A DNA stretch of 64,000 nt. It comes from Planctomycetota bacterium. GTDB lineage: Bacteria; Planctomycetota; UBA1135; JADKAF01. Positions 923-20,861 of the stretch are shown piece after piece. Both the position numbers and the translations under genes were made by a program. A model generated the notes under the pieces. It made no database searches, was not told the origin of the DNA, and saw only the letters and a program-made list of their open reading frames with translations. The stretch lies in the NCBI GenBank assembly GCA_016793245.1, contig JAEUHW010000426.1, positions 1-64,000 on the forward strand, given 5' to 3'. Every line of letters starts with the position of its first letter. Within the stretch, counting starts at the first letter, position 1.

Positions 923-3736
923 TCAGTTGCGCGCCAGGTGTCGCTGCAGCTCGGCCTCGACGTCGGTGATGTAGGCCTTGATCAGGACCATCAGGTTCTC
1001 GGTCTCATCCGAGATCCCTTCCTGGCGGGCGAGGATGCCGACGATCGGCAGCTTCGCGATCCACGGCACCTCGGACTTGCGCTCGACGTTGCGGATCGTC
1101 TTCAGACCGCCGATCAGGATCGAGGCGCCGTCCGGGACGACCGCGGTCGTCTTCGCCGCCGACACCTGCATCTCGGGGAGCTGGAAGGTCACCGGGATGG
1201 TGAGGCCGGCCAGCGAGGTCGTGAAGTCCGGGATCGGCTTCCGCAGCGTGGCGACCGTCGGGCGGAGCTCCAGGATGATGTGCTTGCGGTCCTGCGTGAT
1301 GACCGGGCGCACGTCGAGGACCACGCCGTCCTGCAGCACGTTGATCACCGGGTCGGCGATGAACGACGCCTGCGCGACTTCGACGTCGAAGTCCTGGATG
1401 TAGGAGATCTGATTCACCACCGTGATGTAGGAGCGCTGGGTGTTGAACACCGACAGCGTCTGCGCGTTCACGATGCGGAAGTCGGCCGACTTCTCGACGG
1501 CGTTGATGACCAGCGAGAGCGCCGTGTCGTCGAGGATCGTGATGCCGAAGGTCGCGCCGCCCGTGGCCGAGAGGTTCTGGCCCAGCGGGTTGTCGAAGAT
1601 GTTCTCCGTGCGAGCGCGGACGTCGCCGTCCGAGCCGTCGTTGAAGAAGATGCCGCTCGAGGGGTGCTGGCCGGCGCCGGTGGTCAAGCCCGAGCCGTTG
1701 TTGTCGAAGCCCAGCGAGGCGTTGTCCTCGAGGCCGTTGGTGATGTCGTCCAGGTTCGCGAGGGGACCGGAGACACCGCCCAAGCCGCGGAAGTCGACCC
1801 CGAAGTTCTGCAGGAAGTTCTCCGACACGGTGAGGAACTTCGACTCGATCGTCACCAGCGAGGTCGTGGTGCGCTTCAGGTTCTGGAGGAACTCACGGAC
1901 CTGCTTCTGCACCTCGGGGCGATGGCGGACGAGCAGCGTGGTCGGGCTCTCGTCGGAGCCGCCGCGCGTGATCGAGTAGCGGTCGCCATCCCAGGTGCCC
2001 GGCGCGATGGTCGACTGGATGTACGAGTCGAGCTGGTCGCCGGTGATCAAGCTCGCGCTGTCTTCGCCGATCGTGCCGAACGGGCTCGCGCCTTCAGCGG
2101 TCGAGCCGGCGACGGTGATGTCCCCGATGTCGGGCGCGATGAACTGGTTCAGCTTGAAGGTCAGGTCCTTCACGCCGTAGGTCTCGAGGACCGCGTCGTC
2201 CGTGGATCCTTCGCCGCCGCCGATCGTCGTGAAGCGGATCATCACGGCGGGCTGCGCCAAGAGCTGGTAGGCGTAGCGGGGAGCCGTGCCGTCGTTCTCG
2301 GCGTTCGCCTTCACCATGGCGAGCTCGAGGACGTCGAAGAGCGAGAGGTCGTGGTAGTAGCTCTGCGCCAGCTCCGGCAGCTCGCTCGCGTCGCCGCTGA
2401 ACGCGGAGATCACGAGGGCCGGCCGACCGTTGATCACCGGCGGGTTGTTCCGCACCAGGTTGATCACGTCTTCGAGGGTTCCGACCGAGAGCTTCGGCTC
2501 GTCGCCTTCAGGCGCCGGGCCGCCGGGGACGTAGGTCTCCTTCAGGAGGCGGCGCAGCTCGGCGACGATCGCTTCGTCCTCGGGCGACTCGTTCGAGAAG
2601 CTCGCCTTCCGGCGCTCCGTGTTCTCCACGAAGGTCTTCGCGTCGGGCATGTTGATCGTGCCCGTGTACGGAATCTTCAGCTCGTCGTTCTGGAGCCGCA
2701 TCTCGCGGAAGCGCGCGCGCTTCGCCTTGATGTACTCCTTGTCGTTCTTGTCGAGCTGGAGCTTCTTGCTGGAGAGCTGGAGGTTCAGCGCGCGCTCGTT
2801 GTCGGGCTCGACGCTGAGGATCTGCTCGGCGTAGCGGAGCGAGATCTCGTACTGCTCCTGCTCGAACGCGCGGGTGCCCGCTTCGAGGAGCTGGGCGATC
2901 TCGCTGCGGCGGCGCTCCTGATTCTTCTCGTACCACTCCTTCAAGCGCTCGTCGACCACGCGGTCGCGCTCCGCCTTCTCGGCAGAGGCAGCCTTCTGGC
3001 GGCGCTGGATGGACTCGGAGAGCAGCGTCTCGGCTTCGGTCTGGATGCCCGCCCAGTCGCCGACGGGCGCGTACTTCACGTACTCGATGACGTTGCGGGC
3101 CTTCGACTCGGCCTGCGCGTAGTCGCCGATCGCGAGGGCGTTCTTGCCTTCGCTCAGGTGGAGCTGCGCTTGCTCGCGGATCAACTGCGCGCGGATCTCG
3201 GCGCTCTTGCCGGCTTCCGCGCTGAGGTCGCCCTTGCCGATGCCGAGGCGACCGAGCGCGGTCTCGATGCGCGTCTTCAGGCCGGCGTATTCGGCGTTGC
3301 TCGGGGCGTAGCGCGTGGCTTGGTCCGCGGCGCTGAGCGCGTTCTGCAGCTCGCCGCGCTCGAAGTCGGAGCGGGCCTGCTCATAGGCCTGGCGCGCGAG
3401 CGCGCTCCGCACTTGTTCCTGCAGGCGCGCGTCGTCTTGCGGCGCGTTCATGCCGCCGGCCGGGTCCTGCGGACCAGCAGCCGAGGCTTCCTCGCTCTTC
3501 GCTACGACGCTGCTCGATTCAAGTCCTGACGTCTGGCGGAGCTCCTCGCTGGAGGAGCTCTCCGGAGCCGAACTCGAGGTCGAGCAAGCGCCCAGCGCGA
3601 GGGCGAGCAGGCTCAGGCCGATCGACGTGCGCGCCGCACCCGCGAGCGGGAAGAGCGGCGAACGCGCGCCGAGCTCGGCGCTCGAGGAGGCGGCGCGAAT
3701 TGCGGTGGCGGCCGCGGAAGTGCCTTCGTGCGTCAT
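923..3736 (-). CDS. Secretin-family lipoprotein with N-terminal helical repeats (secretin 1)
   Basis: Outer-membrane channel protein of the GspD/PilQ secretin superfamily, 937 residues from the ATG at 3736. That start is chosen because a lipoprotein signal follows it, ending in the lipobox LALGAC with Cys51 as acylation site; the frame stays open for 57 more codons upstream without a signal. Residues about 100-340 are alpha-helical, charged, TPR-like repeats. The secretin core is roughly residues 620-930. It opens with SLVTIESKFLTVSENFLQNF and ends with the conserved VPDGASILIGGL and VPWIAKLPIVGIL segments that form the channel gate and lip. Known secretins are usually preceded by N domains, not TPRs, so the N-terminal half is unusual. 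It is paralogous to the product of 13366-16128. It lies downstream of the exbB/exbD set but is separated from it by a strong terminator and a 735-base gap, so it probably has its own promoter. Confidence 0.88.
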   Translation of the reverse strand: MTHEGTSAAATAIRAASSSAELGARSPLFPLAGAARTSIGLSLLALALGACSTSSSAPESSSSEELRQTSGLESSSVVAKSEEASAAGPQDPAGGMNAPQDDARLQEQVRSALARQAYEQARSDFERGELQNALSAADQATRYAPSNAEYAGLKTRIETALGRLGIGKGDLSAEAGKSAEIRAQLIREQAQLHLSEGKNALAIGDYAQAESKARNVIEYVKYAPVGDWAGIQTEAETLLSESIQRRQKAASAEKAERDRVVDERLKEWYEKNQERRRSEIAQLLEAGTRAFEQEQYEISLRYAEQILSVEPDNERALNLQLSSKKLQLDKNDKEYIKAKRARFREMRLQNDELKIPYTGTINMPDAKTFVENTERRKASFSNESPEDEAIVAELRRLLKETYVPGGPAPEGDEPKLSVGTLEDVINLVRNNPPVINGRPALVISAFSGDASELPELAQSYYHDLSLFDVLELAMVKANAENDGTAPRYAYQLLAQPAVMIRFTTIGGGEGSTDDAVLETYGVKDLTFKLNQFIAPDIGDITVAGSTAEGASPFGTIGEDSASLITGDQLDSYIQSTIAPGTWDGDRYSITRGGSDESPTTLLVRHRPEVQKQVREFLQNLKRTTTSLVTIESKFLTVSENFLQNFGVDFRGLGGVSGPLANLDDITNGLEDNASLGFDNNGSGLTTGAGQHPSSGIFFNDGSDGDVRARTENIFDNPLGQNLSATGGATFGITILDDTALSLVINAVEKSADFRIVNAQTLSVFNTQRSYITVVNQISYIQDFDVEVAQASFIADPVINVLQDGVVLDVRPVITQDRKHIILELRPTVATLRKPIPDFTTSLAGLTIPVTFQLPEMQVSAAKTTAVVPDGASILIGGLKTIRNVERKSEVPWIAKLPIVGILARQEGISDETENLMVLIKAYITDVEAELQRHLARN

Positions 3737-4471
3737 GAAGATCCAGCCTTTGAGAGGTCCAGCTTTCGAAACTGGCGCGTGAGCTCGGCGGCGGCGCCGC
3801 TGCCGACTCACGCGTGCGGATGGTTCGATCGAGCAGGCGAGCTCTGGAGAGCTCGGCTTGCGCGAGGAAGCTCGTTGGTTGGAAGCACTCGCGCGCTGCG
3901 GAGGCAACGCGGAGCGAGTTCGTGGGTCGGGCCTCGTGAGCGCGCGCGGGACGCGCTTCCGCGACGGTGTCCCTTTGGCGCTTCACAGTCGCGTTCCGTA
4001 GACACGCAGAGCCGCATCGGTGAGGACCTCACGCGATGACGGGAGCGGGTGGACGGCGGCGCGGTGCTAGGGCGTCAGCAGGAACGGCGGGAAGAGCGGC
4101 TCGTCGCGACGACGTGCACCCCGTCGGGTGACACGCGCCTCGAGGCCGTGGAGCGGGGCGTACTGTAGCCATGCCCCAGAGCGAAGTCAAAAGGTTAGGA
4201 ACTGGGTGCGAAGTCGTTGTGGCGAGCCGAGTTGGGAGCGCGAAACCGCGCTCGAGAGACGCCCGAAGCGAGCGATCGCAGGCCGCGCCGTCGCGCGTAT
4301 GCGTTCGCTCGCCCTGTGGCGCTCTTCGCGCTCGGCGAGTTGTCGTCGAGGGGCGCGCTAGCGTCGCCAGCGCGGTCGGTAACCGCAGCACTCGTGAACA
4401 AAACGCGCGAGGCGCGGCTCCCGACGAGGGGGAGCCGCGCCTCGCGCGCGATCGGCGGACGATGTCGAGGA
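3737..4471. other. Gene-free stretch between secretin 1 and the exbD-type gene
   Basis: About 735 bases with no convincing gene on either strand: the open frames here lack homology-like motifs and follow the codon shadow of high-GC DNA. It holds the 19-base-pair terminator of the exbD-type gene at its right end. It should also contain the promoter of secretin 1, but I could not identify -35/-10 elements with confidence. Confidence 0.6.
4399..4448 (-). terminator. Strong intrinsic terminator of the exbB/exbD set
   Basis: A perfect 19-base-pair inverted repeat, left arm 4404-4422 and right arm 4430-4448, loop GACGAGG. It is 23 bases past the stop codon of the minus-strand exbD-type gene. On that strand the stem is followed by TTTTG, giving the classical stem plus U-tract. 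It is the best-formed terminator in the window and marks the end of the exbB-exbD-exbD transcript. Confidence 0.85.
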
Positions 4472-5707
4472 CTAGCCGCCCGGGCGCTTCAGCACGCCGA
4501 ACGGCGACTTGTCCACCTGGTAGAGATTCGGATCGGTGAACTTCGCCTCGAGCACGCCGACGCTGCTGTCGCCGGCGAAGGTCTGCTCCAGGAACACGCG
4601 GCTGGCGACGTGCGCCGGGTTGCGCGACAGCTTCTTGTCCGGCTGGAAGGCCGGGATGCTGTTGTCGGCCTTGCCGGCGATCTCCTGGATGATGATGTTG
4701 TCGTTCAGCATGTCGAGGACCTCGGTCACATCGACGTACTGCACGTTCCAACCCTGGATGTCGTAGAACGAAGCGACGGTGCGCGGATTGCGATTCAGGG
4801 TCGCCGAGATCGCATCGCCCTTCTCGACGCAGGTCATCTCCGCCAGCCAGTACGGGCCGAACTTGGGCTTGTAGACCAGGGCGCGGCGCTTGTCGGTGAG
4901 CAGCGGAACCGGAGTACCGGGCCGCGCGACGGCCCATTGGAGCACCGTGCTCTCGCCGGTCTTGATGACCAGGGCGGGCGACTTCCGCTTGTACTCGTCG
5001 AAGCGCAGCTTGTCGGTATCCGGAGGCGGGTTTCCGTCGCGGTCGCGAATGCCGGCGTTCATCTCGCGGCGGTAGTACTTCCAGTAGAGCTCGCTCATGA
5101 GGAACTGGAGCTCCTCGACCGAGTAACAGACCGCGATCGTGCGGTCCGCGTTGCCGGGCTCCTGCTCGCGCACCTTGTAGCGCACGATGCGGACGGGCGA
5201 ACGCAGGGCGGCGTCGTACGCCACCTGCATGAAGTCGCCGGAGACGCCCTTGAAGACCTTGTTCTGGTACTCGCGGGCCCACTCCTCGAAATCCCAGTTG
5301 ACGCTCGGCGCGCGCTTGATGCCGGGGGGCTTCGATCCGATCGGGCGTCCGGACAACGCGACTTGCGCCTCGCGGTCCTCGAGGCGCGTGCCGCGGAACC
5401 ACTGCACCACCGTCGGAGGAGTCAGGAACTCCTTCGGATGGAGCCAGTCCTGCACCTCGCGGTTGTCGGGGGTGCGGTAGACCACCATGCCCGGCTCCAC
5501 GATGTCGAGGTCGATCGCCAGCTTCGGCTTCTCGACCTCGCCGGTGTTCTGGCTGCCGAAGCTGGTCGGCATCTCGATCTGCATCTTCGCGTCGAGCGAT
5601 TTGAACTTGATCGACACGAGGAAGAAGATCAGCAGGAGGAACGTGACGTCGATCATCGGCGTCATGTCCCCGACCTTCTCGTCGCTATGGCTGCGTCGCT
5701 TGCCCAT
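4472..5707 (-). CDS. Enlarged ExbD/TolR-type proton-motive-force transducer (ExbD 1)
   Basis: Single-pass inner-membrane protein, 411 residues, about three times the usual ExbD length of roughly 140. The N-terminus has the family hallmark: a short basic cytoplasmic tail, then DMTPMIDVTFLLLIFFLVSI, whose membrane aspartate (in MIDVTF) is the residue that carries protons in ExbD/TolR. The rest would be periplasmic. It includes a region of about 300 residues that I do not recognise, rich in charged and aromatic residues, where normal ExbD has only a small TolR-like domain. It is the last gene of the exbB-exbD-exbD set, 137 bases after ExbD 2. With ExbB it should form a proton-driven stator working on some periplasmic or outer-membrane partner, plausibly one of the nearby secretins or TPR proteins (inference). 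Confidence 0.87.
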   Translation of the reverse strand: MGKRRSHSDEKVGDMTPMIDVTFLLLIFFLVSIKFKSLDAKMQIEMPTSFGSQNTGEVEKPKLAIDLDIVEPGMVVYRTPDNREVQDWLHPKEFLTPPTVVQWFRGTRLEDREAQVALSGRPIGSKPPGIKRAPSVNWDFEEWAREYQNKVFKGVSGDFMQVAYDAALRSPVRIVRYKVREQEPGNADRTIAVCYSVEELQFLMSELYWKYYRREMNAGIRDRDGNPPPDTDKLRFDEYKRKSPALVIKTGESTVLQWAVARPGTPVPLLTDKRRALVYKPKFGPYWLAEMTCVEKGDAISATLNRNPRTVASFYDIQGWNVQYVDVTEVLDMLNDNIIIQEIAGKADNSIPAFQPDKKLSRNPAHVASRVFLEQTFAGDSSVGVLEAKFTDPNLYQVDKSPFGVLKRPGG

Positions 5708-5844
5708 GGTGTGCTAGCTCGAGGGTATGCCGGCTCGGAGAGAGAGGGCGATTTCGTGGGTGTCTGGTGCGATCGGCCGCTTGCGGATCGGCCAAGTGCG
5801 AAGCGCTCTCGCCGCGTCGATCGCGGCGAGCGAAGTGCGAGCGC

Positions 5845-6570
5845 CTAGGGCGAGCCCTGCGCGTTTTCCTTGTTCAAGCCGTCCTGGTCCTTCTTGGTCG
5901 AGAACTCGACCTTCTTGAACGGGAAGGCGGGGTCGCGGTCGGTCGGCGCCTTCTTCGAGTACGAAGGGTCCGCCGAAGGCAGGCACTTCTCCAGCACGTC
6001 GCTCACGGAGTAGAACGGCGTCCACTTGTCAGCGCGGATCAGCAAGGGGATGTCGATCACCTTCAGGGGATCGCCGGCACCGGCGGCCGTGGGGGCCGTG
6101 TCCAGGAACTGGATGCGAGCTTCCTTGTCCTTCGGCGTCTTGCCCTCGGTCTTGTCCTTCAGCTCCATCTCGAGGCCGTAGCGGCTGATGCGGTTGACCA
6201 AGCGCTCGTCGGTCTCGAGATCGGCGAGGGTCAGTCCCTCCAGCTCGCGCACGCGGGCCTCCAGGCGCTGGAGCTTCTTCGCACCCTTGGTGGTGCGGCT
6301 CAGCATCTCGCGCGCCGGCTGCGGCAGGAACATGGTGTCGGCCTTGATCACGATCTCCCCGGGACGGGTGATGTTGATCAGGAGGCGCTCCGGATCCGGC
6401 TTGTCCTCGACGGCTCCGTAGCGGACCTTCGGCGGCTCGACGTCCTCCAGGTCCTTCTGGGTGAAGTCGATGACGACGATGAAGAAGATGATCAACTGGA
6501 AGACCATGTCGATCATCGGCGTGAGGTCGACTTCGAGAGTGCCGGGGCTCGTGTCGCGTTTTCTGCTCAT
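5845..6570 (-). CDS. ExbD/TolR-type proton-motive-force transducer (ExbD 2)
   Basis: Second ExbD-type inner-membrane protein, 241 residues. After a short basic tail comes VDLTPMIDMVFQLIIFFIVV, the family transmembrane helix with the proton-carrying Asp in MIDMVF. The remaining about 200 residues are periplasmic, longer than standard ExbD, and carry several Lys/Glu-rich helices. It lies between ExbB (275 bases upstream) and ExbD 1 (137 bases downstream), all on the minus strand. Paired ExbD genes behind one ExbB occur in Planctomycetes and Bacteroidetes. The different periplasmic parts suggest that the two proteins have different partners or form a heterodimer on one ExbB pentamer. No clear Shine-Dalgarno sequence precedes the ATG at 6570, which is fixed by the position of the membrane helix. 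Confidence 0.9.
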   Translation of the reverse strand: MSRKRDTSPGTLEVDLTPMIDMVFQLIIFFIVVIDFTQKDLEDVEPPKVRYGAVEDKPDPERLLINITRPGEIVIKADTMFLPQPAREMLSRTTKGAKKLQRLEARVRELEGLTLADLETDERLVNRISRYGLEMELKDKTEGKTPKDKEARIQFLDTAPTAAGAGDPLKVIDIPLLIRADKWTPFYSVSDVLEKCLPSADPSYSKKAPTDRDPAFPFKKVEFSTKKDQDGLNKENAQGSP

Positions 6571-6845
6571 GGCTCAGCGCTCGGGGAGACGCGGGGGAAT
6601 CGATCGCGGGGGTACACGGCGTCCGCTGATGCGGACGGTCGCGCTGGCGTGCGTTCGGCTGTGCAGAGGCAACGCCGGCAACGGCGCAGGGTTCGGCGGA
6701 GGTGCCGAATTCCCGAAGAAGCATGGTTCACGAGCCGGTCGCGCATCCGCGAAGAGCACTGATGGCTCGATCGGCCGGCGGAACCGGCCCCGACGCGCGG
6801 CGAGAGCGGCGCGCCGGGGGGAACCTCGGAGACCTAGGTCGAAGC

Positions 6846-7580
6846 TCAGCCCTGCTTCGCCCGGAAGCGATCGAAGAGTTCTTCGCAGATCGCGCCCATC
6901 TCGAGGCCGATCTTCGTCGCGCGATTCTTGAAGTACACGTAGAAGGCCGAGATCGGAATCGCGATCACGAGACCGATAACCGTCGTGAGGAGCGCTTGGG
7001 AGATGTCGTCCGCGAAGTCCGCGGGCTTCACGGTCTCACCGGCCGAGGCGATCGTATCGAAGGCGCCGACCATCCCGGTCACCGTCCCGAGCAGACCGAG
7101 CATCGGGGCGACGGCCGCGTGCACGCCGAGCCAGCCGACCTTCTGGCCGAGCTTGATGGCTTCCTCGTCCTCCATCTCCTCGACCGACTTCTCGATGACT
7201 TCGAAGGAGTGGCCGATCTTCTGGATGCCGGCCGCGACGATGCGCGCGAAGGCGACGTCGTGCTGCTCGCAGAACTCGAGGGCCTCCTGGTAGTTGCCCT
7301 CTTCGAAGAGCACCTCGATCTCCTCGATCACTTCGGGCGGCGCGAACTTCTCGCGCTTCACGTTCACGAAGTGCTCGATCACCATCGCGAAGACGACGAT
7401 CGACTGGATGAGCTGGATGATGCCGACCCACCCGATGGCGCCGAGGAACCACATGATGGTGTTCGGCTCTTCCTTGGCGGCGGGCGTTGCGGCTTGCGCC
7501 CAGATGGGAGCGGCGAACACGCTCGCGACCAAGCCCGCGACGGCCAGGGCTCGGAGGGTCCGCTTCAGATCGCTGTTCAT
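6846..7580 (-). CDS. ExbB/TolQ/MotA-family proton channel protein
   Basis: Inner-membrane proton channel subunit, 244 residues from the ATG at 7580. That start is chosen because AAGGAG lies 11 bases upstream and a signal-like hydrophobic segment ending APIWAQA follows directly. A transmembrane helix with IMWFLGAIGWVGIIQLIQ comes next, then a cytoplasmic helical loop. The conserved MotA/TolQ/ExbB domain follows, with APMLGLLGTVTGMVGAF and ALLTTVIGLVIAIPISAFYV as helices lining the channel. An N-terminal cleavable segment before the first true helix is seen in many ExbB proteins of this kind. It is the first gene of the exbB-exbD 2-exbD 1 set and should supply the pentameric channel that energises both ExbD proteins. 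The set ends at the strong terminator at 4399-4448. Confidence 0.92.
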   Translation of the reverse strand: MNSDLKRTLRALAVAGLVASVFAAPIWAQAATPAAKEEPNTIMWFLGAIGWVGIIQLIQSIVVFAMVIEHFVNVKREKFAPPEVIEEIEVLFEEGNYQEALEFCEQHDVAFARIVAAGIQKIGHSFEVIEKSVEEMEDEEAIKLGQKVGWLGVHAAVAPMLGLLGTVTGMVGAFDTIASAGETVKPADFADDISQALLTTVIGLVIAIPISAFYVYFKNRATKIGLEMGAICEELFDRFRAKQG

Positions 7581-7981
7581 CTCGATTCGTTCTCCTTGGG
7601 GCTCGGTTCCGGTCTTCGTGGTGTCGTTCCTACGGGCGGGCTCGCGAGTGCGGCGGCCCAGGGGAGACGCGCGGTGAGGGGCAGAGGGCCGCTGCAGGCA
7701 CATCCGGCGGCGGCGCCGTGCGCGCGGACCGCGTGGTGCCTGCTGGCAGAGCTACAACCGGCGAAGTCGCCGTCGTCTTCGGCGCCCAGAACTCTCGAGG
7801 CGGCGGCGACGGGGCGAGCTCTTCGGTTCCAGCGGTGGCCAGCGACTGGCGGGTCGCTGGCGCGTGCATGGGGTTACCGCACCGACTCCGGTGAGAAGGG
7901 CGGGGGGCGGGGTTTGTAACCGAATCGTCGGCGAAGTTCCAGGCTGCGGAGCCCGGGAGCGGAGCGCTTCGGATCGAGCGT
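7581..7981. other. Gene-free stretch upstream of exbB
   Basis: About 400 bases between the start of the ExbB gene and the stop of the minus-strand repeat-protein gene. I see no gene, tRNA or clear inverted repeat. A G-rich patch lies near 7889-7916 on the plus strand. The exbB promoter should be here but is not recognisable. Confidence 0.5.
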
Positions 7982-9265
7982 TCAGCGCTTCGCGCGAGCG
8001 ACCTTGGCGATCGCGGCGGTCGGATGGAACTCGGCGACCTCGCGGAAGTAGCTCTTCGCGAGGGCCTCGGCGTTCTTGCCTCGGGCGTCGCTCAAGCACT
8101 CGGCGAGGCGCACCTTGCCGCGCGCGAGCAGCTCGGGAACTTCGGGGGCGACGGCGAGGGCCTGGAGGAAGGCTTCGATCGCCGCCTCCATGTCGGGCTT
8201 GCGGTTCCCTTCCTTCGCGACCAGGTAGTCCGCCTCGGCGCGGCCCAGCATCGCGTAGGCCCAGAGCTCCGAACCCGGCCACCAGCCCTTCGCGTAGGTC
8301 TCGGCGGTGAGCACGCGCGTCGGGCTGCCGTCCTTCTGGCGTCGGGCGTCCGGCGTTTGCGGCATCTTGTCCAAGATCGCCTTGAAGTAGCCCTGCGCCT
8401 GCTTCGGGTTCTGCGCCAGGATGCCGTAGCCCTGCCAGATCTGCGCTTGGCGCTCCAGGATCGCGAGGCGGCGGATCACGCCACCCAGGCCCTTCTTCTC
8501 GCTGAAGAAGGCGACGTCGGCCGTGGCGATCTCGCCGGCTTCCTTCGCCGTGTCGCGCGTGGTCGCGGGCGCGTCGCCGGCGAGGGCCGCGCGCGCGAGC
8601 AGGAGGCGCGCTTCGACGCGCAAGAGCTTGCCCGGATCACCGGCGGCGTCGGCCGCATCGACCAGGCCCTTCGCCACGGCGAGCGCTTCCTTCGCGTTGT
8701 CCTTCGCGAGGTAGAGGTCCACCGCGACGGGGGTCGCTTGGGTGAGGAACCAGGACTCCTTGTCCGCGAGCAGCGGCTGCAGCGCGGCCAGGCCCTTGTC
8801 GGCTTGCGCGGCGCGCTCGCCGTCCGCGCCGAGCGCTGCCAGGTCGAGATAGACCTTCGCGAGCGCGATCTGGGTCGCGGCCTTGCCGAACGGGTCCGCG
8901 ACCTTGGCGAGCTCTTTCTCGATCTCGCTGGCCGCGGCACCCAGCGCCGCGAGGCGCTCGCTCACGGGAGCGGAGGCCAGCTTGCCGACCAACGCCGCGT
9001 GATAGCGCACGGCGTTCGGCGTGGTGCCGAAATCGATGTTGGTGAACTCGTAGAGCGCCAAACGCCGCGTCGCGGGATTGTTCGCGCGCTTGAAGCCGAG
9101 ACCGGCGAGCTTGAGCTGCGTGATCTCGGCCACCTGCGCCGCGTCGAGCTCGGCGTTCTCCTTCCAGGAGTAGATGGTGTGGGTGGTCGCCGCGGGCGTC
9201 TGCGCGAGAGCTGCCGAGGGCAGCGCGGCGGAGCAGAGGAGGGCGAGGTGGAGTGCGTTCTTCAT
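7982..9265 (-). CDS. Secreted helical-repeat (TPR-like) protein
   Basis: Predicted exported protein of 427 residues. The ATG at 9265 is chosen because it opens straight into a signal peptide, MKNALHLALLCSAALPSAAL, with likely cleavage after ALA. No Shine-Dalgarno sequence is visible. The mature protein is almost wholly alpha-helical and Ala/Leu-rich. Repeated helix pairs such as AATQIALAKVYLDLAALG and AIEAFLQALAVAPEVPELL resemble TPR units and suggest a scaffold or protein-binding role in the periplasm. It lies 167 bases after the larger repeat protein 9433-12843 and upstream of exbB on the same strand. TPR-type partners of ExbBD systems are known (for example TolA-linked YbgF/CpoB), so a role with the ExbBD set is plausible but inferred from position only. 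Confidence 0.75.
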   Translation of the reverse strand: MKNALHLALLCSAALPSAALAQTPAATTHTIYSWKENAELDAAQVAEITQLKLAGLGFKRANNPATRRLALYEFTNIDFGTTPNAVRYHAALVGKLASAPVSERLAALGAAASEIEKELAKVADPFGKAATQIALAKVYLDLAALGADGERAAQADKGLAALQPLLADKESWFLTQATPVAVDLYLAKDNAKEALAVAKGLVDAADAAGDPGKLLRVEARLLLARAALAGDAPATTRDTAKEAGEIATADVAFFSEKKGLGGVIRRLAILERQAQIWQGYGILAQNPKQAQGYFKAILDKMPQTPDARRQKDGSPTRVLTAETYAKGWWPGSELWAYAMLGRAEADYLVAKEGNRKPDMEAAIEAFLQALAVAPEVPELLARGKVRLAECLSDARGKNAEALAKSYFREVAEFHPTAAIAKVARAKR

Positions 9266-9359
9266 GGCGTGGAAGAGAGGCGAATCCAGGTGTGCGCTCG
9301 AGAGGTGCGAGCGCTGGCGACGTGCGAAGAGGAGGCGAACGAAGAGGAGTCGAGTGGTG

Positions 9360-9387
9360 CTCCCGAGCTGCGGACGCAGCTCGGGAG
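9360..9387 (-). terminator. Hairpin between the two repeat-protein genes
   Basis: A perfect 12-base-pair stem (9360-9371 with 9376-9387), loop GGAC, 45 bases past the stop codon of the 9433-12843 gene on the minus strand. There is no T-run after it. It could be a weak terminator or a processing site that lowers expression of the downstream gene. Confidence 0.45.
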
Positions 9388-9432
9388 GTGGCTGCACGAA
9401 GCCGCGGATGCGGCGTCGGCCGGCGCTTCAGC

Positions 9433-12400
9433 TCACGTGCCGATGAAGCGCTCGAGCCAGACGTAGGCCGCGCGCCACGCCTTCTGGCGGTCGGCCGGGA
9501 TCTCCTTGTCGTCGACCGTCTTGTAGCCGCCCGGGAACTTCTCCCAGTCCTCGCCGGCCTGCGAGATCTCGTTCTTGAAGGTGCGGAGCTGCATGCGCGT
9601 CTCCTCGAGGTCCTTCGTGTTCGGATCGAGGGTCTTCGCCAGCAGCGCCTTCGCGTAGAAGTAGTTGATGTGCAGGTCGAGGTAGGCCTCGGTGCCGAGC
9701 TTCTTCTCCAGCGAGAGGAGATAGCCCCAGACTTCCTTGCCGACCTGGTGCGCGCGAACGGCGTTCGCGAGCTCTTCCTTGCCCGAGGGGTTCGCCTTCT
9801 GCAGGAGCTCGCCGAGGCCGAGCACCGGCACCGGCGGCTTGCCCGGCTCGCGCAGGTTCGGGCCGATCGAGCCCGCGTGAGCGGTGGCGCAGAGCGTGAG
9901 ATCGACGCCGCGGACGCCGTCGAGCACGTACTCGCTCTCGGCCTTGTCGCGCAGCTTGATCGTCATCTTGCGCTTGCCCGTGGTCCAGCCTTGCGCCGCG
10001 CTCCAGTCTTGCGCGCCCTTGGCGTCGCGCGTCCAGGGATAGAAGCACTTGGCAGAGAAGGTGGCGGCGGCTTCGCGATAGTTCTCGAGCCCGCCGATCA
10101 GGAGGCGCGTGCGCGCGATCGGGATGCGGAAGTTGTCCTGCTTCGCGGCGTCCGGCAGCGGCGCGATCGCCAGCCACTTCGCGAGCGCGGCCTCGGCGAC
10201 GCCGGGGGCGCCGGTCTTCGCGATCTCGGTCAGGTAGCGCGCTTCGAGCCAGAGGTTCGTGAACTTGGGCGCGCTGCCCGAGTTCATGCGCCCCAAGTAG
10301 TGCGCGGTCTGCTTGAAGAGCTCGTAGGTCGCGGCATCGAAGCGCGGATCGAGGCCGAGGTCGCCGTCCGGCATCGCCTCGGGCTTCAGCGCCGAGTAGA
10401 GCGCGAAGGCGGGATTCACGAGCGCCCTCGGGTCCACGGTGCCGAGCTTCGCGTCGAGTTTGTCGAACCAGGCCTTCGCCTCTTCGATCTGCTTCGCCTC
10501 GATGAGCAGCGGGATGCCGAAGGACATCGAGAGCGTGCCGAACTGCGCGTTCTGCCAAGGCTCGCTCGAAGACTCGCGGAAGTGGTCGATGGCCTTCTTG
10601 CGGAGGGCTTCCTTCGCGGCTTCCTCGCCGAGGCCCAAGAGCTCGCGGTAGGAGCGCCCCGCGTAGTAGTGCGCGAACTCGACGAAGGTCGCTTCGCGCG
10701 AAGCGGCGAAGTTCTTGCCCTTCTTCTTCTCGTCTTCCTTGCGCTTGGCGAGATCCGCGAGCGCCTTCTCGAGCTGCTGCGCCGCCTTCTGGAACTCCGC
10801 GACCGCCTTCGCCTTGTCGTCGGCGGCCTTGGCGGCCATCGCGATCTCGTAGTTGCAGCGGCCGATCAGGGTCTGGATCTGGAAGTACTTCGAGTGCTCC
10901 GTCTCGGTGACGTTCTTCAGGATCGAGATCGCGCGCTCGAAGCGATCGGCGTTGATGTCCTTCGTCGCGTCGGAGATCGCGAGCTCGACGGTGCCCTCGT
11001 TGCAGCGAATGCTGCCGAGGACGCTCGCTTCGTCCTTCCAACGTTCGCAGAGCTTCACCGAGGCCGGATCTTCGGACTCGACCTTGATGACGAGGGATCG
11101 GAAGCTCTTCGTGACCGAGCAGCGCGGCGAGGCGTCGCCCGCGTAGCGCTCGTCTTCCTCGAAGAAGTGGAGCGCGCCGGTGCGGGCCGCCATCGCAGCC
11201 AGGTGGCGCCGAGGTTCTCCGCCTTCGCTGAGGGAGTTGAAGCAGCGCGCGAGGTGCTCGTAGCAGATGACCAGGAAGGTCTCGGCGGGGACGAGCTCAC
11301 CACCCGTGCCGACTTCGCCGAAGCGCTTCAGGGCCTTGCGGAAGAGCGTCACCGCGGCGCGGTAATCCTTGTCGAGGTAGGCGGCAACCGCCGCCGCGCG
11401 GTACTGCTCGGCGTTGAGCTGGCCATCCTCGACGTGGGCCGCGATCTGGCGGATCGCGTCGATGGCCTTCCGGCCGAGCAGGTTCGTCGGGCGCACGGTG
11501 AGCGGATCGAGGTTGGCCTGCGCCACCGTCCACGTGAGCTCGAGTGCCGCCCCGGTCTGACCCGCGAGCGAGAGCACGATGCCGGCCTCCAGCGTCGCGC
11601 GATACGCGGCGTCGAAGTTGCCGAGCTCGCGCAGCGCGGGTTGACCCGAGTCGGTGGCGATCTTCCAGCGTTTGCGCTCCTCGAGGAACTGGTTCGCGAT
11701 GTCGAGCGCCTCGGGCACGAAGTTCTTCTGCCGGAAGAGGCGGATCGCCGTCTCGTAGGCCTGGCACATCGGTTGTCGCCGGCCGCGCGCGTAGCCCTGG
11801 TACTCGGCCGGGCTCATCTTCTGCTCGTCGCGCGCCAAGGCCCACTGGTCCTCGATCGGCTGGATCGAGAGCGGGTCGAACTCCTTGCCATCCTCCGGCT
11901 TCGGGCGCGGCAGCGCGGCGTCATAGACGCGCGTGAAGAAGCGCAGCGCCTCCTTCACCTTGCCGTTGTAGAGATAGCACTCCGCCTGTCGCGCCGTGGC
12001 GTACATGCCCGCGTTCGAGCTGTCGCCCGCGGTGTCCGCGATCTCGCGGAAGGTGCGCGTCGCGACGTCGAGGAACTGCTTCGCGTCGGCGGCGTTGGGG
12101 TTGCCGCTGGTCAGCAGCTTGTACTGCGCGAGGTAGATCTCGCCCTTCTCGAACTGCAGGCGCGCGAGCGCGGTCTCCAGCTCCTCGATCTGGTCGATCA
12201 AGGGCTGGTCCTTCAGCGGATCGCCCTCCATGGCGTCGTAGAGCGCCTCGATCTTCTTCGAGAGCTCGCCCGTCTCCACGTCGGAGTGCGTGACCGAGGC
12301 CTGCCAGCGCTTCTTGCCCGAGATCTGGCGCTCGATGGCGCTGTCGATCACGTGGCTCTTCACCTCGGCGGGCTGATCCGTGTCGGTCTCGAGCCAGAAG

Positions 12401-12843
12401 AGCGTGATATCGAGCTTCTCGCGCACGAGGCGCAGCATGTCGCGCGCGGCCTCGGAGCGCTGGTAGGTGCGGTTCTTGTCGGCGAGGTACGCGTCGAAGG
12501 CGTCGATGGCCTTGTCGTACGCCGAGAGGCGCTCGCGGTAGGCGGCACCGCGCTCGGCTGCGTCTACGCTCCGGAGGCCCGGTGCCGAGCTCTCGATCGC
12601 GTCGCGCAAGAGCGAGGAGAGCACGAACGCGAGCTGCTCTTCGTTGGCGCCCGGTGACTTCCGCAGGTCCTCGACGATCGTCTGCGCGAGATCGACGAAG
12701 CCGAACTCGCGCGCGAGTCCCGCGGCGAGCTCGAGGCGGCGATTCGCAGGCAGGTCCTGAGCGCGCAGCTCCGGCGCGGCGATCGCGCTCACGAGGACCG
12801 AGATGAGCGAAGCGGGCAGCAGGCGGTCCGCAGACCTACTCAT
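9433..12843 (-). CDS. Large secreted TPR-type protein
   Basis: Predicted exported protein of 1136 residues. The ATG at 12843 is chosen because AGGAG stands 7 bases upstream and a signal peptide follows at once (LLPASLISVLVSAIAAPELR, cleavage near LRAQ). The frame is open upstream but without signal or ribosome site. The mature part is a long array of helix pairs of TPR type. Recognisable units include the region around residues 250-330 (KGEIYLAQYKLL, ATRTFREIADTAG, AECYLYNGKVKEALRFFTRV) and another around 470-520 (AAVAAYLDKDYRAAVTLFRK). A Lys-rich helical segment lies in the middle (AVAEFQKAAQQLEKALADLA). No enzyme motif is seen. Its place between secretin 2 and the exbB set, in the same orientation, suggests a periplasmic scaffold of that machinery (inference). 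Confidence 0.8.
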   Translation of the reverse strand: MSRSADRLLPASLISVLVSAIAAPELRAQDLPANRRLELAAGLAREFGFVDLAQTIVEDLRKSPGANEEQLAFVLSSLLRDAIESSAPGLRSVDAAERGAAYRERLSAYDKAIDAFDAYLADKNRTYQRSEAARDMLRLVREKLDITLFWLETDTDQPAEVKSHVIDSAIERQISGKKRWQASVTHSDVETGELSKKIEALYDAMEGDPLKDQPLIDQIEELETALARLQFEKGEIYLAQYKLLTSGNPNAADAKQFLDVATRTFREIADTAGDSSNAGMYATARQAECYLYNGKVKEALRFFTRVYDAALPRPKPEDGKEFDPLSIQPIEDQWALARDEQKMSPAEYQGYARGRRQPMCQAYETAIRLFRQKNFVPEALDIANQFLEERKRWKIATDSGQPALRELGNFDAAYRATLEAGIVLSLAGQTGAALELTWTVAQANLDPLTVRPTNLLGRKAIDAIRQIAAHVEDGQLNAEQYRAAAVAAYLDKDYRAAVTLFRKALKRFGEVGTGGELVPAETFLVICYEHLARCFNSLSEGGEPRRHLAAMAARTGALHFFEEDERYAGDASPRCSVTKSFRSLVIKVESEDPASVKLCERWKDEASVLGSIRCNEGTVELAISDATKDINADRFERAISILKNVTETEHSKYFQIQTLIGRCNYEIAMAAKAADDKAKAVAEFQKAAQQLEKALADLAKRKEDEKKKGKNFAASREATFVEFAHYYAGRSYRELLGLGEEAAKEALRKKAIDHFRESSSEPWQNAQFGTLSMSFGIPLLIEAKQIEEAKAWFDKLDAKLGTVDPRALVNPAFALYSALKPEAMPDGDLGLDPRFDAATYELFKQTAHYLGRMNSGSAPKFTNLWLEARYLTEIAKTGAPGVAEAALAKWLAIAPLPDAAKQDNFRIPIARTRLLIGGLENYREAAATFSAKCFYPWTRDAKGAQDWSAAQGWTTGKRKMTIKLRDKAESEYVLDGVRGVDLTLCATAHAGSIGPNLREPGKPPVPVLGLGELLQKANPSGKEELANAVRAHQVGKEVWGYLLSLEKKLGTEAYLDLHINYFYAKALLAKTLDPNTKDLEETRMQLRTFKNEISQAGEDWEKFPGGYKTVDDKEIPADRQKAWRAAYVWLERFIGT

Positions 12844-13365
12844 GGAGTGGCTCCTGGATCGTAGCGGGAGTGCTGGGCGCTCTCCATGCCGCACCCGGCA
12901 TGGGCAGGCCGCACTCGGCGAAGCGGGATCGAGATCGAGCTCTGATGCGACCGCGCACACGGGTTCGCCATCGAACGAGCGTTCGACCTCGAACTCAGGC
13001 TTGCCATCGCAGACAGACGCGTTCGTTCTTCTACGTGTCGTGCTTCCACCGGCACCGCGGAGCGCGAGAGCAGGCGAAAGTCCATCCGGGCGGATCGCAG
13101 GGGAGCGCGAGCCGGAACGGCTGGCGTTCGCCGCGGTTCGCACCGGGCCGACTTCGCGGCGCAGGCGCACGAGCTGAACGGGAGGGCGCCGTCCAGCCGC
13201 AGTTGGTGGGCGACAGATTCTGCATGCGCGCGGCCTCGGTGCAACCCGCTTCCTGCGCGATGCTTCGCACGTTCGGAAATGGCAGCGGGGCCGAGAGGTC
13301 ATCGACCTCTCGGCCCCGCGCCGAAGAGCAGCAACCGCGGCGAGCGTGGCGCTCGCCGATCGGGC
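12844..13365. other. Gene-free stretch with the secretin 2 terminator
   Basis: About 520 bases between the large TPR gene and secretin 2, both on the minus strand. The open frames here have no recognisable domain and look like shadows of GC-rich DNA. The right end holds a 16-base-pair hairpin (13285-13319), listed separately. The promoter of the large TPR gene should be here but I could not define it. Confidence 0.5.
13285..13319 (-). terminator. Terminator-like hairpin after secretin 2
   Basis: A perfect 16-base-pair inverted repeat (13285-13300 with 13304-13319) closing on a 3-base ATC turn, about 46 bases past the secretin 2 stop codon. On the minus strand it is followed by TGCCATTTCC, only a short T stretch. 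The stem is very stable and probably ends the secretin 2 transcript. Confidence 0.65.
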
Positions 13366-16128
13366 TCAACGGAAGAGCTCGGGCTCGTGCTCCTCGAGGA
13401 TCACGATCTCGGCCTTCAGCAGGATCAGCAGGCGCCGATTGCTGGTGTAGCGGCCCTTCCGCGAGAAGAAGAAGGAGACGATCGGGATGTCCGAGAGGAC
13501 CGGGATGCCCGAGGTGAAGTCCTGCTTCTCCGAGATGTTCTGACCACCGAGCAGCAGCGTCGCGCCGTCGGGCATGGTCACCGTGGTGCGCACGCGCTGG
13601 ATCTCCAGCTCGGGGAGCTGGATCGTGACCGGCGAACCGACGCCCAGCGTCGTCGTGACTTCGCGGATCGGACGGGTCAGCGTCGCCACGGTCGGGCGCA
13701 GCTCCATCGTGATGAAGCGGCGGTCGGCGGAGACGATCGGCGTCACGTCGAGCACCACACCGTCCGAGATCACCTGGATCACCGGGTCGGCGATCGAGGC
13801 CGCTTGCGCGATCTCGACGTCGAAGTCGGAGACGTAGGAGACCTGGTTCGTCACCGAGATGTTCGCGCGCTCGGTGTTGTAGACCAAGAGGCGCGGCGCG
13901 GTGATGACCTGCACGCGCTCGGACTTCGAGACGGCGCGCAGCACGGCCTCGATCTGCGTGTCGTCGAGGAACGTGTACTGCGCGGAGAGGCCGCCCGAGT
14001 TGGTGAGGATCGACTCGTTGCCGAGGGCGCGGTCGTAGAGGTTCTCGGTGCGGCCGAGGATGTCGCCGTCGGAGCCGCGCGAGTAGTAGATGCCCGGCGT
14101 GTTGTCGGTGCCGATGCGGCCCGGCTCGAGCGGGCTGCCCGGCGCGTCGCCGAAGTCGTCGAAGAAGAGCGAGGTGCCCTTGCCCGGCTCGCCTTCACCG
14201 CCCGACTGGTCGCCGAGGCCGCGGAGGTCGACGCCGATGTCTTCGAGGAAGTTGTCCGCGACGCTCATGAAGCGCGACTGCACGTCGACCATCACGCGCG
14301 TCGCCCCTTGCAGAGCGGCGAGGAGCTCCTCGATCTGCGCGTGGACTTCCGGCGTGTGCATGACGACCAGCGTGCCGCTCGGCGTCACTTCGACGATCGC
14401 GCCGGCATCCCAGCTCGCGTCGCCGCGGGCGATGTTCGCCTTGATGAGGTCGGGCAGCGTCTCGGCGGAAGCGATGAGCGCTTCTTCCGGCGGTTCTTCC
14501 TCGGTGGCGAAGTCCTCGGCGCCGGGGCGGTAGAGGTTGATCTCCTTCGTCGGATAGAAGGCGACCTTGCGGACGATCTCGCTCACTTCGTAGAAGCGGC
14601 GGACCATCGTGTCCTTCAGCGCGAGCGAGCGCGGCAGCACTTGCACCACGCCGTTGCGCACGCGGTGGGTCATCCCCGAAGGCGTGAGCGGGAGGTTCCG
14701 CAGCCACTCGCTCACCGTCAGCGTGCCGCCGACGAGGCCGAGGTGGTTCTTCGCCGAGGTGACGCCTTCTTCTTCGGCGCCGGCTTCGAGCAGGAGCTGC
14801 ACGTTGACGCCGATGCGCTTCGAGATCGTCTTCAGGACGTCGCCCATCAGCTCGGCGTCGGCGATCTCGGCGGGGATCAGGACCTTCTCGCCGAGCGCGC
14901 GCTCGATCTCGAGATCGCGCGGGTCGCGGGCGATCGCATCTTCGCCGAGGCGGAGCGGCGTGCGCGAGGAGACCTCGCGCCAGTGCTCGCGGTCCTCGTG
15001 CATGATGATCTGGTTCTGCGGGAGATCGCTGTGCTCGATCTCCTGCATCGTCTTGATCCACTCGTAGCGGAAGCGATCGCGGATCTCGGTCTCCGACTTC
15101 TCGCGGCGCGCGTCTTCGACCATGTCGCGCAGCGTCACCGCTTCATCCAGATCGGGACGGCGGTGCAGCACGCGGTCGAGGGCGCGCAGCGCCAGATCGA
15201 AGTCGCCGTTCTGGAACGCGATGCGCGCTTCGTGCATCCAGCGCGAGACCTCGGCGGCCTGGCGCTGCGTCTGGGCGCGGCGCTCCGACTCGGAGAGGCG
15301 CTCGGCTTCGTTCTCGCGGGCTTCCATCTGCTCGCGCAGATACTGGTCGCGCTCCGCCTTCGTCGCCGCGATCAGGCTCATCACGGCCATCTCGCTCAGC
15401 GTCTGGTCCTGGATCAGGGTGTTCACCTTCACCAGGGTGAGCGCTTGCTCGTACGCTTCGAGCGCGCTGTCGTAGTCCTTCGTCGCGCGAGCGTCGCCGC
15501 CGCGCTCGATGGCGCGCAGCGCGGAAGCGCGGCTCAGGGCCCGGCTCAGCACCTCGCGCTGGACCTCGTCCCGGATGCTGTGGATCGCGGTCGCCGTGCG
15601 ATCGCCGATCAGCTTGTGGATCTCGAGGACCTTGCCGTTCACGCGCTCGTCGTTCGGCGCGAGCTGCAGCGCGCGGCTGTAGAAGTCGAGCGCCTGCTCG
15701 TACTGCCCGGCCTGCGTGTAGAAGTCGCCTTGCTGCACGAGCTGCGCGAGCAGCCGCGTGCGCTCGGCTTCGCTCGCGAACTCCTGCGGCGCCGGATCCT
15801 GGCGGCCCATCTCGGCGCCGGAATCCCGCGCGCCCATCCCGGCCGAGCCCGCCGGAGCATCGTTCGCCGGAGTCTCGCCACCGCCGTCGGCCATCGGCAT
15901 TTCGCCGTCGCCGTCTCGGTTCGCAGACATCTCGCTGGCGCCATTCTCGGCCGCAGCGCCGTCCTCCGAGGAGCTGGCGCAGCCGCCGAGGGGGAGCATG
16001 CCGCTCGCCATGATCGCGCTGAGCGCGAGTGCGGGCAGGCCGCTCGCTGTCGTTCTTCCGGCTAGCGGTGCGCGGCACGCGAGAGAGCCGAACAGGCTCA
16101 GCACGCGGCGGAACGCGGAGTCCGTCAT
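13366..16128 (-). CDS. Secretin-family lipoprotein with N-terminal helical repeats (secretin 2)
   Basis: Outer-membrane secretin of the GspD/PilQ superfamily, 920 residues. The ATG at 16128 has AGGAA 7 bases upstream and is followed by a lipoprotein signal ending MLPLGGC, with Cys50 as acylation site. After a Gly/Asp-rich linker come TPR-like repeats (FYTQAGQYEQALDFYSRALQ is a canonical unit) and a helical region to about residue 350. Then follow mixed alpha/beta N-type domains and the secretin core over about the last 320 residues, with VMVDVQSRFMSVADNFLED, MPDGATLLLGG and IPVLSDIPIVSFFF. It shares blocks with secretin 1 (SDGD, SYxxDFDVExAQAxxIADPVI, DGVVLDVxP, ELRPTVATL), so the two are paralogues. 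The C-terminus lacks the extra S-domain tail used for pilotin binding. The lipidated N-terminus may replace a pilotin (inference). Confidence 0.88.
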   Translation of the reverse strand: MTDSAFRRVLSLFGSLACRAPLAGRTTASGLPALALSAIMASGMLPLGGCASSSEDGAAAENGASEMSANRDGDGEMPMADGGGETPANDAPAGSAGMGARDSGAEMGRQDPAPQEFASEAERTRLLAQLVQQGDFYTQAGQYEQALDFYSRALQLAPNDERVNGKVLEIHKLIGDRTATAIHSIRDEVQREVLSRALSRASALRAIERGGDARATKDYDSALEAYEQALTLVKVNTLIQDQTLSEMAVMSLIAATKAERDQYLREQMEARENEAERLSESERRAQTQRQAAEVSRWMHEARIAFQNGDFDLALRALDRVLHRRPDLDEAVTLRDMVEDARREKSETEIRDRFRYEWIKTMQEIEHSDLPQNQIIMHEDREHWREVSSRTPLRLGEDAIARDPRDLEIERALGEKVLIPAEIADAELMGDVLKTISKRIGVNVQLLLEAGAEEEGVTSAKNHLGLVGGTLTVSEWLRNLPLTPSGMTHRVRNGVVQVLPRSLALKDTMVRRFYEVSEIVRKVAFYPTKEINLYRPGAEDFATEEEPPEEALIASAETLPDLIKANIARGDASWDAGAIVEVTPSGTLVVMHTPEVHAQIEELLAALQGATRVMVDVQSRFMSVADNFLEDIGVDLRGLGDQSGGEGEPGKGTSLFFDDFGDAPGSPLEPGRIGTDNTPGIYYSRGSDGDILGRTENLYDRALGNESILTNSGGLSAQYTFLDDTQIEAVLRAVSKSERVQVITAPRLLVYNTERANISVTNQVSYVSDFDVEIAQAASIADPVIQVISDGVVLDVTPIVSADRRFITMELRPTVATLTRPIREVTTTLGVGSPVTIQLPELEIQRVRTTVTMPDGATLLLGGQNISEKQDFTSGIPVLSDIPIVSFFFSRKGRYTSNRRLLILLKAEIVILEEHEPELFR

Positions 16129-16440: not shown

Positions 16441-17511
16441 TCAACGCGCGCGCGGAACCTCGGCCGGCGGGAGGATCTGGAGGGTGCGCCCCCAGCCGTC
16501 CCGCACCTCCACGGCCGGCAGCCAGACCCGCTCTTCGAGCACGAAGAACTTCGTCTGCGCTCCGCCCTCCCCGGGCTCGAGCGTTCCGTCGCTGCGGAAC
16601 ACGGGCTCGCGGTAGCGGATCGGCCTCACGACCTCGACCCAGCGGAGCGCTACGACCTCGAGGCCGGTCGCGCACGCTTGGCCGATCGCCTGACCCGGGC
16701 TCACCTCGACCACTTCGGTGCGCCCATCCTCCGTGCGGCGCACTTCGAGCCGCGCGGAGGTCGGGTTGCCCGGAGGTGGCTCCGATGCCCCTGGCGTCGC
16801 GGGAGGAGGTTCGTTCCGATCCGCGCGCTGTTCCTCGAGGAGGGCGAGCACGTGGAGGGCCGGAAGCTCGACCTGCACCGCGCGACCTTCGCTCCTAGAG
16901 CCCGACCCGTCCCCGGTAACCGCGAAGACCGAGTAGCCGATCTCGATCGGCCCCGGAGCGAGACCCGCATCCACGTAGCGCGGCGCGATCAGCTTCGAGG
17001 CGACGAGGGTCGGCTCGGTGGTCGCCGTCCAGCGCCAGACCTCGAACTCGAGCGCGGGCAGGTTCGGGTCCTCCGCGGACCAACTCAGCGCGACATCGAC
17101 GCGGTCCGCGCGCCCGGAGGGGCTCGCGCTCAAGAGCTGGACCGGCGGCAGGAAGCGCGCTCCGGGTGGCGGCGGCGCCAAGGTCACCGCGGGGCGCGCG
17201 CGCCGGGCGGACTCCACTTCGGCGGCGCTGCGCCGCAGCGTGTCGGCGGCCGTGCGAGCCGCCGAGGTGTTCGCCGCGCGCAGCGCGCGCAGCGCGCGCT
17301 CGCCGTCGCGGAGCCGACCGAGGCGCGCCATGGCCGCGTCCGTGCCGGCGACGCGCAGGTCTTCCGCCGTGGAGGCGACGCCCGCGTTGCCGCGGCTCGC
17401 CGCGGCATCCTGCAAGCGCGGCCCGAAGAGCAGGGCGAAGGCGAGGGCTGCCGCGCCGACCGCGAGGCCGATTCGCAGCGTGCGCAGGATCCACGGCGCA
17501 CTGCGCTTCAT
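16441..17511 (-). CDS. Bitopic membrane protein in PilM-like operon (PilP/GspC position)
   Basis: Predicted inner-membrane protein of 356 residues. The ATG at 17511 overlaps the stop of the gene before it by four bases (ATGA), which fixes the start. A short basic tail is followed by one transmembrane helix (IGLAVGAAALAFALLFG), then an Ala/Arg-rich helical stretch. Next is a beta-rich segment like a fibronectin type III or Ig fold (VDVALSWSAEDP ... YVDAGLAPGPIEIGYSVFAV). After a Pro-rich linker comes a small C-terminal beta domain with a VSPGQAIGQ motif. Membrane anchor plus periplasmic beta domain, last in a PilM/N-O-like operon and upstream of a secretin gene, matches the place of PilP or GspC, which link the inner-membrane platform to the secretin. 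Sequence similarity alone does not prove that identity. Confidence 0.6.
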   Translation of the reverse strand: MKRSAPWILRTLRIGLAVGAAALAFALLFGPRLQDAAASRGNAGVASTAEDLRVAGTDAAMARLGRLRDGERALRALRAANTSAARTAADTLRRSAAEVESARRARPAVTLAPPPPGARFLPPVQLLSASPSGRADRVDVALSWSAEDPNLPALEFEVWRWTATTEPTLVASKLIAPRYVDAGLAPGPIEIGYSVFAVTGDGSGSRSEGRAVQVELPALHVLALLEEQRADRNEPPPATPGASEPPPGNPTSARLEVRRTEDGRTEVVEVSPGQAIGQACATGLEVVALRWVEVVRPIRYREPVFRSDGTLEPGEGGAQTKFFVLEERVWLPAVEVRDGWGRTLQILPPAEVPRAR

Positions 17512-18077
17512 CGCTCGCCTCCTGCGAGGGCCGCGTCGCCGGCCGGCGCGACGTGCAAGCGCAGGCGACCGACGATCTCCGCATGCGCGCCGCTCGCGAT
17601 CGGGCCGACGATCGACCAGCGGCAGGAGCGGGGCTCGAGCGGAGAGCTCGCGGCGGCGTGGAGCACCTCTTCCCACCACGCGACCGCATTCTCCGCGGGA
17701 GCGCGGAACTCGGCCTCGAGGTTCGCGCTCCCTTCGGCGGAGCGCTGCCAGCGCGCTTCGACCCCGTGGCGCGCCGCGGCGTCGAGGCAGCGCGCGAGGG
17801 CCAGCCCGGTCGCGTCGAGCGCTTGGTCAGGTGCACCTCCGAGCGCTTCGCGCGCCGCGGCGATGCCGCTCGGCGAAGGTCCCTCGAGCGCGGGCACCTC
17901 GAGCTTCGGAGCGAGCTCGTCGAGGGCTTTCTCGATCTGGGAGCCGCAGCTCGCATCGATCCACGGACGCAGCGGAGTTTCCTCGCGTATGGCGACCGGC
18001 GGGCCGATCCAGAGCAAGCGACCGGCCCAGACCAGCGCGCCCAAGGCGAATACGGTGGCGCAGGTGTCGCGGATCAT
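17508..18077 (-). CDS. Bitopic membrane protein in PilM-like operon (PilO/GspM position)
   Basis: Predicted inner-membrane protein of 189 residues with one N-terminal helix (TCATVFALGALVWAGRLLWI) and a periplasmic alpha/beta domain of about 150 residues. It overlaps the PilM/N-like gene by four bases (ATGA) and the next gene by four more, so the three are translationally coupled. PilO and GspM proteins have exactly this plan: a helix then a ferredoxin-like domain of this size, encoded directly after PilN/GspL. The helix-strand pattern in ALARCLDAAARHGVEARWQR and AEIVGRLRLHVAP fits such a fold, but I see no diagnostic motif. The call rests on size, topology and order. Confidence 0.6.
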   Translation of the reverse strand: MIRDTCATVFALGALVWAGRLLWIGPPVAIREETPLRPWIDASCGSQIEKALDELAPKLEVPALEGPSPSGIAAAREALGGAPDQALDATGLALARCLDAAARHGVEARWQRSAEGSANLEAEFRAPAENAVAWWEEVLHAAASSPLEPRSCRWSIVGPIASGAHAEIVGRLRLHVAPAGDAALAGGER

Positions 18078-19792: not shown

Positions 19793-19817
19793 CGGGGACT
19801 CCGGTGCGCGAGGCAAG

Positions 19818-20687: not shown

Positions 20688-20861
20688 GCACACCTGCGGC
20701 GCAGCTCGGGCGCCGAGTGCTCATCATGCGCTCGACGTTGCCGCTGCTCCAGAGGGTCGGCGCGGTCCCCGCAGCTCGAGAACTCGGCGCGGGCTCGGCA
20801 CCGCCGCGTCTCGGCGTTACAAACCCAGATCGAAGACCGCCCGTCTCCGCTCCATACGCAC
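20688..20861. promoter_or_regulatory. Divergent intergenic region
   Basis: About 170 bases between the uracil-DNA glycosylase start (minus strand) and the TPR protein start (plus strand). Promoters for both directions should lie here by gene arrangement. I could not identify clear -35/-10 hexamers. Confidence 0.45.

Follow-up and report, generated by a model that had tools for sequence, protein, structure and literature searches.

A conserved planctomycete gene system of paired secretins, ExbB-ExbD-ExbD and TPR proteins: a candidate proton-motive-force-energised trans-envelope system

A cluster of secretin, ExbB/ExbD and helical-repeat (TPR) genes in a 64,000-nt stretch of planctomycetotal DNA (the window; contig C163 of a genome of 7.57 Mb in 458 contigs) belongs, on the well-supported evidence of comparative gene content and order, to a conserved gene system; no description of its combination of secretin pair, ExbBD and TPR proteins was found in the literature searched. 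To our knowledge, the secretin machines whose energetics have been worked out are all driven by a cytoplasmic ATPase, and the partners described for ExbBD-type motors are TonB, Tol or gliding proteins. The first-pass annotation of this DNA proposed a single machine in which ExbBD acts on a secretin or its scaffold; the linkage of the genes proved to be conserved, but the association of secretins and motor is not obligate, and an action of ExbBD on a secretin is still something that we infer. The cluster probably encodes one functional system, and we give even weight for and against its being a proton-motive-force-energised trans-envelope system whose outer-membrane part is the secretin pair. 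Direct coupling of the motor to the secretins, which we likewise infer, is put slightly below even chances. More tentative still is a new class of secretin transport, in which ExbB-ExbD1-ExbD2, acting via periplasmic TPR proteins, would replace the cytoplasmic ATPase at the secretin pair.

The seven minus-strand genes first annotated, with their secretin, ExbB and ExbD domains, were all recovered with Pfam (Table 1), and the description of the secretins as lipoproteins agrees with lipobox-like N termini (LALGAC in SecB, LPLGGC in SecA), the lipobox cysteine of SecA being nearly invariant in 39 orthologues. The two proteins described as secreted and TPR-like do have signal-peptide-like N termini, but neither contains a significant Pfam domain, and the term "enlarged" fits the ExbDs of this genome (241 and 411 aa) but not the family, whose medians are about 185 and about 190 aa stop to stop. 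The span originally assigned to the cluster, 923-16128, ends at the start of SecA and missed three co-directional genes (gC-gB-gA, 16441-19816), with which the gene unit reaches 19.8 kb; 4-bp overlaps join gC to gB and gB to gA. The intergenic gaps among the seven genes are 137-735 bp, which counts against the one-system reading in that a single transcript for all seven is only putative. A uracil-DNA glycosylase gene (19818-20693, minus strand) immediately precedes the cluster and recurs a short way upstream at about 72 loci; it is probably a housekeeping neighbour and was set aside.

Table 1. Genes of the cluster in the window. For SecB, ExbB, TPRs, TPRL and SecA the higher coordinate is the likely start on the minus strand.
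Gene	Product	Coordinates	Open frame to	Strand	Evidence
SecB	Lipoprotein secretin, N-terminal TPR-like region	923..3736	3907	-	PF00263 E 1.4e-20; orthologues form downstream cluster end at other loci
ExbD2	ExbD/TolR-type, 411 aa	4472..5707		-	PF02472 E 5.4e-9
ExbD1	ExbD/TolR-type, 241 aa	5845..6570		-	PF02472 E 9.9e-13
ExbB	ExbB/TolQ-type proton channel	6846..7580	7703	-	PF01618 (MotA_ExbB) E 7e-26
TPRs	Exported helical-repeat protein, ~430 aa, adjoins ExbB	7982..9265		-	Weak TIGR02795 YbgF-like match; position conserved
TPRL	Exported helical-repeat protein, ~1140 aa	9433..12843		-	Homologues directly 3' of SecA in most loci
SecA	Lipoprotein secretin, N-terminal TPR domain	13366..16128	16362	-	PF00263 E 1.6e-28
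gA	One TM helix + FN3 + C-terminal beta domain	16441..17511		-	Orthologues directly 5' of SecA
gB	Small one-TM protein	17508..18077		-	Direct reading; one-TM ORFs at equivalent place in other loci
gC	PilM/GspL-like protein	18074..19816		-	Profile of orthologues

The one-system reading is supported by the fixed order of motor, TPR and secretin genes over most of 87 loci. A first scan with secretin A as query had returned 80 loci, whose titles name Planctomycetota or a planctomycete in nearly every case, and order was then counted with per-gene profiles at 87 planctomycetotal loci where 11.5 kb or more of sequence follows the anchor, a secretin-A homologue. ExbB-ExbD-ExbD lies between two secretins in 64 of these 87 loci, a percentage slightly biased upward because the choice of some of loci L139-L178 was guided by a prior finding of two secretin hits spaced about 11 kb (loci L020-L099 were picked on secretin A alone). 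The exact order of the window, Sec-TPRL-TPRs-ExbB-ExbD1-ExbD2-Sec, was found in 45/87 loci, and 13 further loci have this order with a sulfatase-like gene ahead of the last secretin; ExbB-ExbD-ExbD follows the secretin(s) in 4/87 and is absent in 19/87. The strand of the anchor is shared by 433 of the 434 motor and TPR genes, and the counts of order and strand together rule out a chance neighbourhood. At two loci (L154, L155) the two secretins are adjacent and the TPR-motor module comes directly after them, a second arrangement that still keeps module and secretins linked.

Conservation of gene order in relatives, the check suggested with the original annotation, extends across distant Planctomycetota families and into deep lineages; the order is ancient. 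Within the taxonomic order of the window's genome, one genome (L018) holds the complete gene set and others hold partial sets. With a threshold of E 1e-60, secretin A was detected in 237 of the 392 Planctomycetota genomes sampled, most genomes having two SecA-family hits, so that, judged by secretin A, more than half of the sample carries the cluster. At least one carrier is a complete genome (L036; CP036296, titled Pla86), which we take to be a member of the shape-shifting 'Saltatorellus' clade. The interval from ExbD2 to SecB offers just one candidate for a further conserved gene, the sulfatase-like gene, present in part of the lineages; other clusters of frames in this gap look like shadow frames. 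Encoded there in a group of deep lineages (L050:18928-20892 and equivalents), the sulfatase-like protein has C-terminal similarity to TPR repeats and a motif that suggests a non-cysteine nucleophile.

Motif searches found the ExbB pore threonine in 79/81 orthologues and the transmembrane aspartate in 74/79 ExbD1 and 72/86 ExbD2 orthologues (ExbD2 motif TPMID); ExbB and both ExbDs thus have the residues expected of a functional motor of the ExbBD type. TPRs and TPRL both recur as protein families in other genomes, TPRL with poor sequence conservation (14-44% identity to the first member in an alignment of 30). Used as a query, TPRL found no relatives in a collection of genome contigs, and the relatives found within its taxonomic order were weak, a failure attributable to fast divergence, and secretin A served as query instead. 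Most ExbBs linked to secretins or belonging to TPRL modules group together in an ExbB tree (support 0.876), apart from those linked to von Willebrand factor A (vWA) genes, and two divergent secretin-linked ExbBs (L155, L159) branch outside the main group. That this deep support is just 0.876, and that conservation of a neighbourhood falls short of proof of physical contact, both weigh against the one-system reading. In the window's genome another large TPR protein is encoded next to ExbB and ExbD on contig C234 (L180:3696-8494), followed by a large TM protein; this locus looks like a further ExbBD-TPR system.

If motor and secretins are coupled, the ExbD pair would work within an ExbB pentamer, and the periplasmic domains of the ExbDs would pull or turn the TPR proteins. 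These in turn may make contact with the TPR/ring part of the outer-membrane secretins on the periplasmic side, a contact that would open the gate or move substrate through the secretin. In lineages that keep gC-gB-gA, the window's included, a PilM-type inner-membrane platform might also hold secretin A.

The reported absence of ATPase and TonB genes from the cluster was borne out: among 12 PF00437 (T2SSE-type) matches in the window's genome none lies on C163, and the sole TonB_C match of the genome lies on contig C225, beside an ExbB/ExbD set distinct from that of the cluster, which rules out the ExbBD of the cluster as the TonB system. ExbBD genes are hence not always tied to Tol or TonB, since TonB_C has an ExbB/ExbD set of its own and the ExbB of the cluster falls in a distinct clade. 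Pfam detected no pilin or pseudopilin, and no TolA, TolB or Pal, among the ten genes of the cluster.

The strongest rival, which we nonetheless consider unlikely, is that two separate systems share the locus: SecA (with gC-gB-gA) and SecB would be T4P/T2SS-like and served by an ATPase encoded elsewhere, and TPR-ExbBD would be an independent motor. Homologues of gC-gB-gA occur 5' of SecA at about ten loci of the first set and at many loci of deep lineages, and they would provide secretin A with inner-membrane partners of the type IV pilus secretin kind; with PilM-type partners in this position in many lineages, a conventional T4P-like role with a distant ATPase keeps some plausibility. The gC orthologues are PilM family members, 4 of the 7 tested passing the PF11104 PilM_2 cut-off; the window's gC falls below that threshold in Pfam and belongs to the same profile family as the matching orthologues. 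The FN3 domain of gA was seen both by profile search and in a model. A PilP/GspC HR fold for its C-terminal beta domain went unconfirmed, Foldseek matches being mainly of FN3/immunoglobulin type; gA is PilP/GspC-like in position.

The secretins themselves also lend weight to such a division. Both belong to the PilQ/GspD superfamily (PF00263), and SecA matches MshL/PilQ/GspD and Amuc_1098 profiles. An AlphaFold2 model of SecA built with 39 orthologues (mean pLDDT 66.8, pTM 0.35) places the TPR domain at about residues 115-366, then ring domains, and a secretin domain at about 612-910; its best PDB match is PilQ (6w6m), and BfpB, InvG and GspD are also among the best. PF00437 ATPases, moreover, were present in all five genomes tested, in the window's genome some of them on contigs that lack a secretin match (C79, C195). 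Three other secretins of that genome already stand beside ATPases (C130, C157, C365), however, and neither an ATPase nor a pilin is linked to the locus: in the L036 genome the cluster lies at about 2.31-2.32 Mb and the nearest T2SSE match some 450 kb off (the cluster position was taken from G020, whose ExbB coordinates equal those of L036's genome). The persistence of the motor linkage across the phylum, in two arrangements, likewise argues against two systems. Elsewhere in the window's genome two further secretins stand in tandem (C422; L106:6857-10494), on a contig without an ATPase match.

Two systems would also accord with the separability of the module from the secretins. In several genomes with tandem secretins the TPR-TPR-ExbB-ExbD-ExbD module occupies a different locus, and most genomes in which the secretin pair lacks an adjacent motor have a complete or nearly complete module elsewhere; in G223 (9.5 Mb in one contig, about 40% GC) SecA, a further secretin and the module are far from one another, at three sites (L160, L161, L194). 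Two Planctomycetia-like genomes (G144, G167) have an orphan TPRL-TPRs-ExbB-ExbD-ExbD module and no SecA-family secretin at E 1e-30. Their ExbBs nest within the secretin-linked group (support 0.949 with three secretin-linked ExbBs), and this nesting suggests that the secretins were lost secondarily. Because the module occurs alone or at another locus, secretin and motor are associated, though not obligately. Across the 392 genomes the presence of SecA and that of TPRL are associated (both in 163, SecA only in 74, TPRL only in 35, neither in 120), which favours one system, in a count that ignores relatedness and in which TPRL detection is weak, G142 being listed without a match and G174 absent from the matches despite TPRL beside SecA (L159, L154).

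A second rival, improbable in our estimation, is a tethering motor like Tol-Pal or the vWA modules, in which ExbBD and TPR proteins would pull on the outer membrane as the cell grows or divides, with the secretins as anchors, not channels. Orphan modules without secretins in two genomes would suit such a motor, as would the weak YbgF/CpoB-type similarity of the TPRs protein and the presence in planctomycete genomes of related TPR-ExbB-ExbD-ExbD-vWA modules, in which ExbB and two ExbDs accompany vWA, mostly with a TPR gene, and which match the published module (PMC12204202). Anchors would nevertheless need less than a pair of full-length secretins, with gate and ring domains in the SecA model, and the cluster has no vWA, TolA, TolB or Pal genes. 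Four such vWA modules were noted (L184:6755-11463, L187, L188, L189), and L184 and L187 also hold TPR and signal peptidase II-like genes. An Agl-Glt-like motor for surface motility, moving adhesins or polymer anchored by outer-membrane secretins, is very unlikely: the make-up of one TolQ and two TolRs with TPR partners (PMC3169522) and the cluster's presence in Pla86, given the shape-shifting described for the 'Saltatorellus' clade (PMC11481906), speak for it, but Agl-Glt as described has no secretin and most carriers of the cluster are uncultured. Crateriform pits as the function of the cluster are only a lead.

Were secretins and ExbBD indeed joined in a proton-motive-force-energised system, secretins would have an added energy source or ExbBD motors a new output. 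The cluster shares with TonB-ExbBD and Tol-Pal an ExbB/ExbD family motor but lacks TonB, TolA, TolB and Pal genes. With PilMNOP-PilQ and GspLMC-GspD it shares an equivalent order, a PilM-like gC followed by one-TM gB and gA and by a secretin, the likeness of gB and gA to PilN/O/P being one of position and TM layout only; unlike T4P and T2SS loci, it has no PilB/GspE-type ATPase and does have ExbBD. N-terminal TPRs on a large secretin are known from the PilQ-type Amuc_1098 of Akkermansia (PMC4960237), which SecA resembles in this respect; the secretins of the window differ in being two per locus, in their linkage to ExbBD and in their scores against the Amuc_1098 profile NF042912 (SecA 95.8 bits, E 1.8e-27; SecB 33.3 bits), neither of which reaches the curated cut-off of 750 bits. 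Myxococcus AglRQS-Glt likewise has a single TolQ-type protein, a pair of TolR-type proteins and periplasmic TPR partners (PMC3169522), but has no secretin as described, and the TPR resemblance is one of make-up only. The published PVC force-transducer module TPR-TolQ-TolR-TolR-vWA (PMC12204202) is related to the TPR-TPR-ExbB-ExbD-ExbD module, with a TPR gene, one TolQ/ExbB and two different TolR/ExbD genes in equal order; Pfam found no vWA domain among the ten genes of the cluster, whose ExbB belongs to a separate clade and which adds a large TPR protein and a flanking pair of secretins.
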